A stretch of DNA of 64,000 bases from Thermococcus sp. MAR1 (GTDB lineage: Archaea; Methanobacteriota_B; Thermococci; Thermococcales; Thermococcaceae): NCBI RefSeq assembly GCF_012027305.1, contig NZ_SNUF01000001.1, positions 372,001 to 436,000 of the forward strand, in the 5' to 3' direction. The notes under the pieces are model-generated. The model saw nothing but the letters and a program-made list of their open reading frames with translations. It was not told the DNA's origin and made no database searches. Below, piece by piece: positions 47,057 through 50,316 of this stretch; the first letter of the stretch is position 1, and each line of letters begins with the position of its first letter. The position numbers and the translations under genes were made by a program.

Positions 47057-47073
47057 GTTTCAAACCTTGGGTT
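47057..47073 (+). promoter_or_regulatory. SurR-like site upstream of hypA (perfect consensus)
   Basis: Plus strand GTT-TCA-AAC-CTTGG-GTT, exact to GTTn3AACn5GTT, with the palindromic core reading GTTTGAAAC on the minus strand. It lies upstream of the hypA TATA-like element and inside the last codons of the neighbouring membrane protein gene. Confidence 0.72.
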
Positions 47074-47992
47074 CACTGGCTTCCATCTCCCTCAGCTTCC
47101 ACGCGAGAACCGCGAAGGTGACCACGCCTAGGAGGGCCTCACCCCTCACGCCGTTGACCTCTAGGATTACATCGTAGGGCACGAGCCAGAAGGCCAGGAA
47201 GCCCAGGGCTAGGGCATACTTTCTCCTCTCGTCAAGATGGGAGGGTGTGGAGTAGAAGTGGAGGGTTACCAGAAGTCCGAGGACAGAGGGCACAACGGGG
47301 TGTGCTGAGGAGTGGGGGAAGGCTGTGAAGATAAAGAACAACGCGAAGGAGACAGTGAAGCCATAGACGAAGGGATGTCTCCTTGGAATGCCGCGCTTGA
47401 AGAGAGTCTCCCTTTTTACCTTCCTTGCGAGGATCAGCAGGAGCACCGTGAGGAGGATGGTGAGGGAATACTGAACTGCCGGCGGGCGGTACTGGGCCAG
47501 GAACGCTGAGAACACCGCAGCGGAGGCTCCGAAAGAGAGTGCCGTCACGGTTATCCCCCGCGTTCCAAGGAGTGTTTCATTGGAGAACTCTGGATAGAGG
47601 GCATCGACAACCATTATCGGCATCGCTATGCTCATCAGGGAGTGAAACATCGTCAGCCACACCGCCCAGACTGCGTTAACTCCCCATACCCTCCCATAAA
47701 CGCTGAAAACGTCCAGGTCTGGCCATTTCGGATTGAACCACGACTTTACGACGAGTCCCTCCTCCACGATTCCATAGACAAAGCCGAGGAGCATGAGCCT
47801 AACGTAGTTCCTCCCCCACCTGATCCAGGCCTCGCGGACGAGGAGAACGCCAGCACCGTAGTAGGCCCACAGAAACGGAAACGAGAGGGGATTCGTGAGG
47901 ACTTCTAGGGGTGGGGTGGAGCCGCTCAGCACCTCTGCGAAGAAGGGCGAGATTAGCGAGAGGACTAAAGCGACCCTGGTTTTGGAGTTCAT
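47060..47992 (-). CDS. Multi-pass membrane protein, unknown function
   Basis: A 310-residue integral membrane protein with about eight to nine helices. Notable is FVYGIVEEGLVVKSWFNPKWPDL (about 69-91), an EE motif followed by a charged loop, and MFHSLMSIAMPIMVVDALYP with a conserved-looking histidine. EExxx and histidine residues in membrane helices recall CPBP-type intramembrane proteases, but the full motif set is not present, so this is only a suggestion. ATG 47992 is chosen; GGAGAG lies upstream, and the frame to 48061 is in promoter-like sequence. It is divergent from the TauE gene and its stop overlaps the SurR-like site of hypA. Confidence 0.7.
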   Translation of the reverse strand: MNSKTRVALVLSLISPFFAEVLSGSTPPLEVLTNPLSFPFLWAYYGAGVLLVREAWIRWGRNYVRLMLLGFVYGIVEEGLVVKSWFNPKWPDLDVFSVYGRVWGVNAVWAVWLTMFHSLMSIAMPIMVVDALYPEFSNETLLGTRGITVTALSFGASAAVFSAFLAQYRPPAVQYSLTILLTVLLLILARKVKRETLFKRGIPRRHPFVYGFTVSFALFFIFTAFPHSSAHPVVPSVLGLLVTLHFYSTPSHLDERRKYALALGFLAFWLVPYDVILEVNGVRGEALLGVVTFAVLAWKLREMEASEPKV

Positions 47993-48043
47993 GTATTGAA
48001 CTCGGCTCTCCTGTTTAACACCTTTTTGGATGAGAAAATTTTT

Positions 48044-48063
48044 AAATGAGGTTCTTCTCATTT
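48044..48063 (+). promoter_or_regulatory. AAATGA-N8-TCATTT operator at the TauE promoter
   Basis: An inverted repeat AAATGA (48044-48049) and TCATTT (48058-48063) with eight bases between. It is fused to the TATA-like TTTTTAAA immediately upstream and covers the expected start-site region. The same arrangement occurs at the TDT exporter gene (49826-49845). Confidence 0.6.
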
Positions 48064-48080
48064 TGTTTGGGTGACCTAAA

Positions 48081-48820
48081 ACGAACTACCCTGAACTCGC
48101 ACTTGTTGCCTTTATCCTCAGTATCGTCTTCTCGATAGGGGGTGTTGGTTCTGCAATAGCCATAGTCCCGGTCATGGGCTGGCTTGGGGTTCCTCTCATG
48201 ACCGCGAAACCAACCGGTCTGTTCATCAACACACTCTCAATGCTCTCCGCAACGCTGAAGAACATCAGACATGGCAAGCTCGACGTTCGATTCGGCCTGC
48301 CAATCCTCATCGTGACACGGCTATTTCTCCGATTGGTGCATACTCCGGGAAGTTCATACCTCGTCGCGTTGTCCTTGTCGTTTTCGTGCTCTTCCTGCTT
48401 TACTCAGGCACGATGATGCTCTTTTTCCGGCCCAGAAAGCGGAGGGGAGGGGGAAACCACGTCATTGAGGGCTCGCTCATCGGTGGAATAGCAGGCTTTC
48501 TGGGTGGACTCCTCGGTGTTGGGGGAGGCGGAATAATCAGTCCCGCATTGATACTTCTCGGCTATGAACCGAAAAAAGTCGCCTCGACAACAGCATTGAT
48601 AGTGTTCTTCTCGTCCCTGAGCGGGTTCCTGACGTACTGGGGCATGGGAACTTTGGACTTAAAACTGCTCCTCTGGGTCTCCGTTCCTGCAATAGTCGGG
48701 GGCTGGCTTGGAACGCACCTGATGCACTTTAAGATGAGCTCCGACCAGGTGAAAAAGATGATAGGGGTCATAATGTACCTCATAGCCCTTAAGACGCTTC
48801 TCGTTGCTCTGAACCTCTGA
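48081..48820 (+). pseudogene. TauE/SafE-family anion exporter, broken by frameshift and start-codon change
   Basis: TauE/SafE proteins export sulfite or organosulfonates. The reading frame from 48081 gives family-like sequence (PELALVAFILSIVFSIGGVGSAIAIVP, GLFINTLSMLSATLKNIRHGKL), but at 48314-48317 the frame shifts: GTGAC-ACGGCT appears to lack one base, and the family sequence resumes in another frame (AISPIGAYSGKF, GGIAGFLGGLLGVGGGGII) to the stop at 48820. In addition, the codon placed correctly after GGTGA (48070-48074) is ACG where ATG is expected. Two separate lesions argue for decay rather than a single sequencing error; re-sequencing or a programmed frameshift cannot be excluded. The 3' end overlaps the convergent TDT gene by 32 bases. 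Confidence 0.75.
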
Positions 48821-49811
48821 AGGCGAAGTTTCTGAGCGTAAGACCTCCAGTGACCAGCCATATCGCCAGGAGGAGCCAGTAGAGGACGAATCCAAAGTCT
48901 GTGATGGCGTTTATCCCGAAGGTTGTCCCTACGTTGAAGGTCGCACTAACGTAGGCTCCAAGCGGGAATATGAAGGCCCACCAGGCGAGGCTGTAGGGGA
49001 GGTTGAGCTTCCTGAGGTAGTGGAGCGTCATCAGAATCGCCATGAGAAGCCACCATATTCCAAAACCCCAGAGGAGCAGTCCAAAGACTAAGAAAGGCTC
49101 CTTCACCGTTACGAAGTCGCTCGCCTTTATTAGTGCGTAGAGGGTTGAAGTCCCGGCTCCGATGGGTCCGAGGTTTATCCATATTGCTGGCGCCATACCG
49201 CATGGCAGGGGTTCGTGGGTTATGAACCTGTGCATGACTATCGCAAAGAGCGCCAGGTAGAGAAAGAAGCCGGAGCCCCAGGCAAAGTAGTTTATCGCAT
49301 ATGTGACCTCCCTGGTGGCTCCAGCGAGTGTTGAGGCTATCACCGAGCCGCTGAGTGGAATCACTATCAGTCCAACCGGGGGAATAAACCACGCGGGAGT
49401 CACGGTTCTGATGTCTATTCCCCCCTCGATAAACATCAGGTATGGAATCAGCAGGGCAAAGAACACCGTGAGAACTGTTCCTGTGGCCCAGAATACCACT
49501 GCAACGAATTCCCTCCGGAGGATGAAAAGGTAGTCCGCTGAGAGGACGAGCATTGCCACCGCTATTGTGCCGTAGAAGTGGCATATGACGGGATGCCTCA
49601 AGTCACCGAGGGCGTCTTCTCTATATCTTAGCCACCTCAGAACCCAGGGCACCAGCAGGACGAAGAACAGAACGGTGTTGATGTAAGTCAGAAGCTCTGC
49701 AAAGTTCCCTAGGGGTGGGAGTTTCCCCGAGTATGCCTTGCTCACGAGCGCTAGAGCACCGGTTCCCATAACGCTCGCGAACCAGCTCGGTGCGAAGTCT
49801 TTGATTCCCAT
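48789..49811 (-). CDS. TDT/SLAC1-family anion exporter (tellurite-resistance/dicarboxylate/sulfite type)
   Basis: A 340-residue membrane protein with ten predicted helices, the TDT (TehA/SSU1/SLAC1) plan: FAPSWFASVMGTGALALV at the N-terminus (helix 1), FWATGTVLTVFF, MHRFITHEPLPCGMAPAIWINLGPIGAG (helix 5-6 region near 195-220) and LPYSLAWWAFIFPLGAYVSAT. Family members carry sulfite, malate or chloride. ATG 49811 follows GGTGGTCG. The promoter carries the same inverted repeat as the TauE gene. The 3' end overlaps that gene. Confidence 0.9.
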   Translation of the reverse strand: MGIKDFAPSWFASVMGTGALALVSKAYSGKLPPLGNFAELLTYINTVLFFVLLVPWVLRWLRYREDALGDLRHPVICHFYGTIAVAMLVLSADYLFILRREFVAVVFWATGTVLTVFFALLIPYLMFIEGGIDIRTVTPAWFIPPVGLIVIPLSGSVIASTLAGATREVTYAINYFAWGSGFFLYLALFAIVMHRFITHEPLPCGMAPAIWINLGPIGAGTSTLYALIKASDFVTVKEPFLVFGLLLWGFGIWWLLMAILMTLHYLRKLNLPYSLAWWAFIFPLGAYVSATFNVGTTFGINAITDFGFVLYWLLLAIWLVTGGLTLRNFAFRGSEQREAS

Positions 49812-49825
49812 ACGACCACCAAATT

Positions 49826-49845
49826 AAATGAAAAAAATTTCATTT
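49826..49845 (-). promoter_or_regulatory. AAATGA-N8-TCATTT operator at the TDT exporter promoter
   Basis: On the minus strand TTTTTAAATGA is followed after eight bases by TCATTT, ending 14 bases before the ATG at 49811. It forms part of a longer perfect inverted repeat (49824-49847, 10-bp arms, loop of four A/T). The TATA element and first half-site overlap exactly as at 48044-48063. Confidence 0.65.
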
Positions 49846-49855
49846 AAAAACTTTT

Positions 49856-50227
49856 TCACTGGTGCTTCGTCGCCTCTATCCTCTCCCTCCAGTGAGGGTC
49901 GACCTCAAGAACCTGGTGTATGAAGGCCTCAACGACGTTTTTAACCCTCCCGTAGGCCCCGGTGACGACGGTTATTCCTAGGCCCTCGAAGTATGCCATG
50001 GCCTTTCCTCCCATCCCGTAGGCAAGCACAACCTCCCCGCCGTGCTCCTTCACGAAGTTTGGGATGTCACCTGGGCCGTGCTCTTCGAAGGGAACCTCGA
50101 CAACCTCGAAACCTTTGATGGTGGCATCATCGACCTCAACGAACGCGAAATATTTTGCCCTGCCAAAGTGCTCACAGACCTCGCTCTCCAGCCCTCTATC
50201 ATCCTTAAGGGGGACCGCGATTCTCAT
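49856..50227 (-). CDS. NifX/NifB-like (dinitrogenase Fe-Mo cofactor type) protein
   Basis: A 123-residue protein of the Nif-Fe-Mo-co superfamily, which binds iron-molybdenum or related clusters. The fold is marked by MRIAVPLKDDRGLESEVCEHFGRAKYFAFV-type start (about 1-30), a central VVLAYGMGGKAMAYFEGLGITVV (about 66-88) and a C-terminal helix. In archaea without nitrogenase these proteins have unknown roles, perhaps in metal-cluster handling. ATG 50227 is preceded by GGTGGT. It is divergent from fmdE with a SurR-like site between. Confidence 0.85.
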   Translation of the reverse strand: MRIAVPLKDDRGLESEVCEHFGRAKYFAFVEVDDATIKGFEVVEVPFEEHGPGDIPNFVKEHGGEVVLAYGMGGKAMAYFEGLGITVVTGAYGRVKNVVEAFIHQVLEVDPHWRERIEATKHQ

Positions 50228-50255
50228 GAAACCACCAATACTATGAAAAAGTCTT

Positions 50256-50265
50256 CAAATATAAA
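50256..50265 (-). promoter_or_regulatory. TATA-like element of the NifX-like gene
   Basis: Minus-strand CTTTATATTT lies 29-38 bases before the start codon at 50227. Confidence 0.55.
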
Positions 50266-50269
50266 GTTT

Positions 50270-50281
50270 GTGCATATGCAC
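50270..50281. promoter_or_regulatory. Perfect 12-base palindrome GTGCATATGCAC
   Basis: It sits five bases upstream of the TATA element of the NifX-like gene, where an activator or a metal-responsive regulator could bind. No other copy was noticed in the window. Confidence 0.45.
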
Positions 50282-50299: not shown

Positions 50300-50316
50300 C
50301 ACCAAAGGTTAATAAC
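50300..50316 (-). promoter_or_regulatory. SurR-like site in the NifX-like/fmdE divergent promoter (one mismatch)
   Basis: Minus strand GTT-ATT-AAC-CTTTG-GTG differs from GTTn3AACn5GTT in the final base. It is upstream of the TATA-like elements of both divergent genes, an activating position for each. Confidence 0.5.

Follow-up and report, generated by a model that had tools for sequence, protein, structure and literature searches.

A conserved palindrome directly downstream of TATA elements, probably the operator of one transcription factor, precedes transporter and iron-sulfur protein genes in Thermococcaceae

In Thermococcus sp. MAR1, a gene of the TauE/SafE family and a gene of the TDT/SLAC1 transporter family share a locus, and the promoters of both carry the palindrome AAATGA-N8-TCATTT, which raises the question of whether one regulator controls the pair and, if so, whether the pair is all that it controls. 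We analysed the locus within a window, the whole stretch of 64,000 nucleotides that was examined (positions 372001-436000 of contig C1 of the 2.02 Mb genome, designated G000, in 53 contigs), and across 94 genomes of the GTDB family Thermococcaceae. An earlier note on this DNA had described identical, TATA-fused sites at the two promoters, and these proved exact as described: a scan of the whole genome returned exactly two matches, those at the TauE and TDT promoters (Table 1), with no match to the reversed control pattern in the same 2.02 Mb. In 300 simulated windows (Markov-1), the pattern occurred 0.003 times on average and two or more times in none of the 300 runs; when two mismatches were allowed, three sites were observed against 1.78 expected, and the signal was lost in noise. 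The TDT-side site, given as AAATGAAAAAAATTTCATTT, reads AAATGAAATTTTTTTCATTT on the minus strand, and each of the two sites has TTTTTAAAT fused ahead of it in the direction of the gene and a GGTG-type ribosome-binding site after it. On the minus strand, a gene of unknown family (47060-47992) faces away from TauE across window positions 47992-48081; the two may use a common TATA region, in which case the operator could act on both genes.

Table 1. Features of the TauE-TDT-NafY-like locus, in window coordinates
Feature	Position	Strand	Basis
TATA element TTTTTAAAT, TauE promoter	48039..48047	+	sequence; T-rich columns ahead of the site conserved in the alignment
Operator AAATGAGGTTCTTCTCATTT, TauE promoter	48044..48063	+	sequence, genome scan, simulation; orthologous sites in 14 genomes
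Ribosome-binding site GGTGACC of TauE	48070..48076	+	sequence; kept in relatives
TauE/SafE-family gene (PF01925), frameshifted, ACG at start-codon position	48081..48820	+	Pfam on two pieces
TDT/SLAC1-family transporter gene	48789..49811	-	PF03595 E 9.5e-73; TIGR00816 tdt E 1.1e-86
Operator AAATGAAATTTTTTTCATTT, TDT promoter	49826..49845	-	sequence, genome scan, simulation; orthologous sites in 12 genomes
TATA element TTTTTAAAT, TDT promoter	49842..49850	-	sequence
NafY/NifX-like gene (PF02579)	49856..50227	-	PF02579 E 6.9e-21; directly upstream of TDT, same strand
Third operator copy ATTTGAAGACTTTTTCATAG, NafY-like promoter, degenerate	50241..50260	-	NafY-like promoter collection and sequence
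TATA element TTTATATTT, NafY-like promoter	50257..50265	-	sequence
Second palindrome GTGCATATGCAC	50270..50281	-	just upstream of the NafY-like TATA element

The TDT gene scores above the Pfam and TIGRFAM cut-offs and thus belongs to the TDT/SLAC1 transporter family. The window's TauE gene has a broken frame, with a first stop at codon 111 when it is read from the conserved start position; in a relative (G014) the frame is intact over 246 codons. Both pieces of the window's gene match PF01925. The frameshift, noted in the region 48310-48420, reflects either recent decay or an assembly error. The claim that both families move sulfite held only at the level of families: neither the TDT nor the TauE protein had a sequence relative in the PDB at E 0.01, the window's TauE is frameshifted, and the label of sulfite exporter is for both genes a matter of family names.

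A separate observation concerns the start of TauE. In seven genomes (G000, G014, G016, G022, G025, G033 and G043), ACG stands at the usual ATG start of the TauE orthologue, at 48081-48083 in the window and at six further loci. A GGTGACC-type ribosome-binding site lies ahead of it, as in the ATG-start orthologues; the frame is uninterrupted in six of the seven (245-246 codons), and five of the seven have no in-frame ATG, GTG or TTG ahead of codon 31. A conserved ACG start codon would be unusual in archaea.

Spacing was assessed on 79 target and 55 control promoters, each set made non-redundant at no more than 70% identity, the controls being promoters of the HypA, HypB, FmdE, c13 and wHTH4 genes of the same loci. 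In each promoter, the 56 bases that stop 6 nt short of the start codon were taken, and TGA-Nk-TCA was counted for every k between 3 and 14 inclusive. A spacer of 8 occurred in 36 of the 79 target promoters, and no other spacer in more than four. None of the 55 controls had it; with this result and with the site's conservation at orthologous TDT and TauE promoters (below), the reading of a shared operator withstood the refutation that the earlier note had proposed for it. The fair, independent part of this test is that on the TDT, TauE and NafY-like orthologues. The spacer of 8 was found in 17 of 43 TDT promoters (6 of 18 non-redundant; Fisher p = 1.1e-4 against controls), 16 of 40 TauE promoters (5 of 20; p = 9.0e-4) and 34 of 50 NafY-like promoters (14 of 19; p = 2.5e-11), the last having mostly entered the collection because they adjoin TDT or TauE, independently of the motif; most of those collected show the layout of TATA followed by TGA-N8-TCA. 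Counts for four further families, namely CVCQG, a small cysteine-rich protein with no Pfam or NCBIfam match (8/8; 3/3 non-redundant), ferredoxin-like (5/22; 3/10), ACR3 (4/5; 3/4) and 4Fe-4S proteins (2/6; 2/5), are biased upward, since it was the motif that drew attention to these families.

Aligned on the core, 34 non-redundant sites (two of the 36 were left out, lying too close to the end of the 56-base stretch) gave the consensus TTTTAAATGAA-N6-TTCAT and a conserved core ATGAA-N6-TTCAT, which contains TGA-N8-TCA, straight after the TATA element. ATGA and TTCAT are fixed or nearly so, and spacer columns 4-9 show hardly any constraint (0.08-0.29 bits). The outer AAA is largely part of the TATA element and the outer TTT is weak past its first T, so these outer letters are not the conserved part of the site. 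Symmetry outside the fixed core did not clearly exceed the column expectation, one position excepted; at one locus (G026) both halves are altered, giving ATATGA...TCATAT, and one of the 34 rows, from a TDT1 promoter that lacks a correctly aligned TATA, probably matches by chance. The TGA lies 30-46 nt ahead of the start codon throughout the 34 promoters and the TATA element directly precedes the site; such a symmetric site, constant in position and either overlapping TATA or immediately following it, has the form of a steric-block operator. The overlap of the first half-site with TATA could also be read as a palindrome-like basal promoter feature made up of TATA and the initiation region, in which case the AAA is conserved for that reason, or each gene could have a regulator of its own, as the gene-by-gene loss of the site in some lineages might suggest. 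Both versions are, however, unlikely, given that the N8 core is missing from all 55 controls and that, across unrelated genes, the spacer of 8 alone is enriched.

Across the family, the exact AAATGA-N8-TCATTT is present in 23 of the 94 genomes. The pattern TTWAWATGA-N8-TCAT, which joins TATA and site, returned 59 matches in 39 of the 94 genomes against 18 for its reversed control. These comprise 44 sites before seven gene families, 14 elsewhere, near the reversed-control level, and one TDT site read backwards. The downstream genes are TauE and TDT, at whose orthologous promoters the expected conservation was found (14 and 12 of the 94 genomes, respectively), CVCQG (6), ferredoxin-like (4), NafY-like (3), ACR3 (3) and 4Fe-4S proteins (2), the ACR3 and ferredoxin-type genes having been assigned by Pfam/NCBIfam. 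A scan with the core pattern gave 105 matches versus 3 in the reversed control, a contrast that is overstated because the reversed control lacks start-codon-like words (ATGAA, TTCAT); several of the recurrent matches are not promoters, lying at the coding ends of upstream genes or in stretches without a reading frame, and gene assignment was partial. In the window's genome, the shortened core WATGA-N8-TCAT matched 18 times per strand, and the 30 matches inspected lay mostly within reading frames; the core with a relaxed TATA matched exactly the TDT and NafY-like promoters. A scan of public genomes returned 18 loci, few of them in Thermococcus. A methyltransferase-like gene (MHELYTALAEYY...) carries TTTTAAATCTGAAGCCCACTTCATTTTTGGTG or a near variant before its start in several genomes (four loci) and is a possible further target of the ATGAA-N6-TTCAT operator.

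The distribution of the site also shifts from gene to gene. In G017 and G039 it has been lost at the TauE promoters and kept at TDT; in G016 it is kept at TDT, with the first half damaged at TauE; and one further group of TDT promoters lacks it. In one related group, the NafY-like promoters have a spacing of 10 instead of 8 (7 of 50 promoters). From this gene-by-gene loss and the altered NafY-like spacing, we conclude that the TDT/TauE pair is part of a larger, shifting regulon. The shared operator that the earlier note saw at the two genes is thus conserved, but it does not define a module of two exporters, since NafY-like, ACR3, ferredoxin-type and 4Fe-4S genes have it as well; likewise, co-control of TauE and TDT agrees with the shared site but is not obligatory, as the two genomes that lost it at TauE alone demonstrate.

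The NafY-like promoter of the window holds, besides the degenerate third copy of the operator, a second palindrome, which is probably the site of another regulator with another regulon. The related palindrome TGTGCATATGCACA, from which the window's own copy differs at the first base, occurs in one to three copies in 85 of the 94 genomes (reversed control, 0). In the 30 loci inspected, it often lies ahead of NafY/NifX-like, Mrp-type ATPase and CDF-type transporter genes, and its regulon perhaps serves a metal.

GTTn3AAC-like elements of the SurR type lie upstream of CVCQG promoters (four loci) and of ferredoxin-like promoters (three loci), and the promoters that have them also hold the ATGA-N8-TCAT site, either as such or as a relic; this suggests that these CVCQG and ferredoxin-like promoters are under double control. 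Could SurR, the sulfur-responsive regulator of Thermococcales, itself act at the ATGA-N8-TCAT sites? The target genes look sulfur-related, and in the window a GTTn3AAC element also lies near the divergent FmdE promoter (GTTAATAAC, 50308-50316). However, the SurR motif is GTTn3AAC and not ATGA-N8-TCAT (PMC6316755), and neither the TauE nor the TDT operator contains it, which makes SurR a barely credible occupant of these sites, although it may co-regulate some of the target genes through sites of its own.

Which protein, then, would bind the palindrome? The earlier note had proposed to find a co-occurring winged-helix regulator, and the two linked candidates, wHTH4 and wHTH21, both failed, being missing from the window's own genome. 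The first, a TrmB/MarR-like winged-helix gene, lies beside TauE or beside a second TDT paralogue in many relatives, and in three of them (G022, G033 and G043) it adjoins TauE in the same direction, with the site between the two genes. In G000, however, the best profile match to wHTH4 is a distant paralogue at 41 bits; at a threshold of at least 200 bits, wHTH4 occurs in 16 of the 35 genomes in which a target promoter carries the site and in 28 of the 59 others, a distribution that shows no association. Its partner is rather the second TDT paralogue, with which it co-occurs in 18 of 18 genomes. It falls below 200 bits in 19 of the 35 site-bearing genomes, G000 included. Because it is missing from the window's genome and shows no association with the sites, we rejected wHTH4, which is very unlikely to be the common regulator. 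The distant paralogue itself (178-190 aa; G000:C2:61578-62000), which is widespread (E about 1e-10), was set aside too: nothing ties it to the site, and it is below the cut-off in site-bearing G025, G068 and G069.

The second TDT paralogue (48-56% identical) was found in 18 genomes, all with wHTH4 at 200 bits or more. Its promoters (loci L070, L072-L080, L085, L087 and L088) have a TTTAAG-N4-CCTAA-like element after the TATA in 11 of 16 cases, and this element is a possible wHTH4 operator.

The second candidate, wHTH21, is an ArsR/PadR-like gene with an ArsR-type HTH by Pfam and no PDB sequence relative, and lies directly upstream of the NafY-like gene, on the same strand, in several genomes (for example, G030, G032 and G067). 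Against it, no match at E 0.001 was obtained in many site-bearing genomes, among them G000, G013, G014, G022, G023, G025 and G033, and the copies beside NafY-like in G001, G020, G027 and G028 are fragments; its absence from G000 at that threshold led us to reject it as the common regulator, a role in which it is very unlikely. No regulator gene was found among the genes behind the sites and none besides wHTH4 and wHTH21 among the inspected neighbours, where a CopR-like gene lies near the G093 sites; autoregulation, for this reason, gave no lead.

From the observed sites, with their spacing, position, conservation and target genes, we infer that a single transcription factor, conserved throughout Thermococcaceae and a putative repressor, has the palindrome as its operator, and assign this reading a probability of roughly 0.75. 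A symmetric dimer would recognise ATGAA-N6-TTCAT directly downstream of TATA. In ordinary archaeal promoter geometry, the site would span TATA to shortly before +1, and a protein bound there would occupy the DNA between TATA and the transcription start, blocking TBP/TFB or RNA polymerase, until an inducer lifts the repression. The earlier note's reading is partly supported, through the shared, conserved operator; repression as such, deduced from the position of the site, is probable, and an activator is a possible alternative. In the window, the predicted targets are TauE, TDT and, more weakly, the NafY-like gene, and in relatives they would also include the ACR3 arsenite exporter, an OsmC-like gene and iron-sulfur proteins. 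As the target genes include ACR3, the OsmC-like gene and iron-sulfur proteins, the inducer would probably be an oxyanion of sulfur or arsenic, a reactive sulfur species or an associated stress on thiols or Fe-S centres. The names of the target families suggest a function in sulfur/arsenic oxyanion export together with protection or repair of iron-sulfur proteins. A fuller and distinctly more tentative picture is that of a stress regulon spanning Thermococcaceae, in which a family-wide DNA-binding protein on ATGAA-N6-TTCAT would control TauE, TDT, ACR3, NafY/NifX-like and iron-sulfur protein genes, with the ACG start of TauE, kept in seven species of one lineage, serving there as a second, translational brake.

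In the literature searched, largely of open access, we found no published description of the ATGAA-N6-TTCAT site, though RegPrecise may list it unnamed; the regulon therefore appears to be new, whereas palindromic operators at TATA are familiar as a kind. The main text of the Thermococcus gammatolerans cadmium transcriptome report (PMC3407056), in the passages covered, contains none of the words tellurite, TauE and sulfite. Archaeal operators on record are few, and for most of them the regulator was discovered first. Here, the order is reversed: the operator comes with its exact spacing, its place in the promoter and a coherent target list ahead of the regulator, so that one short duplex in DNA affinity capture could name the protein. 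Such a regulator would tie the poorly understood TDT, TauE and NafY-like genes to one shared signal in organisms whose way of life depends on sulfur.

The earlier note knew of no archaeal regulator with this site, and the regulator motifs that we checked, those of SurR, CopR and TFB-RF1, indeed do not explain the operator. The SurR regulon (ArsR family, Pyrococcus and Thermococcus) is similar in its sulfur-linked Thermococcales targets and in control at the promoter, but its motif differs from ATGAA-N6-TTCAT, which places the TauE and TDT operators outside that regulon. CopR of Pyrococcus furiosus (Lrp family) similarly brings metal and stress genes under one semi-palindrome, which is TTNNCAWWWTGNNAA, located upstream of the BRE (PMC7830388), whereas the present site has another sequence and lies downstream of TATA. 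TFB-RF1 of P. furiosus resembles the present case in that a palindrome is conserved among Thermococcales at a set place in the promoter; that protein is an activator at TCTGAANTTCAGA, upstream of a weak BRE (PMC5937170), and both sequence and position differ from those found here. The feast/famine regulators of the FL11/LrpA type have a 13-bp palindromic site (PMC2995911). Its A/T-rich, TGAA...TTCA-like form recalls the operator described here. The FL11 site, TGAAAWWWTTTCA, has a spacer of 7 between TGA and TCA as opposed to 8, and a spacer of 7 was found in none of the 79 non-redundant target promoters, compared with 36 for a spacer of 8. Finally, in bacteria, sulfide and persulfide repressors of the BigR/SqrR and CstR types control TauE-like exporters, and the SqrR site is ATTC-N8-GAAT; the half-site differs from that of the Thermococcaceae operator, but the TauE-like exporter target and, for SqrR, the spacer of 8 are the same.
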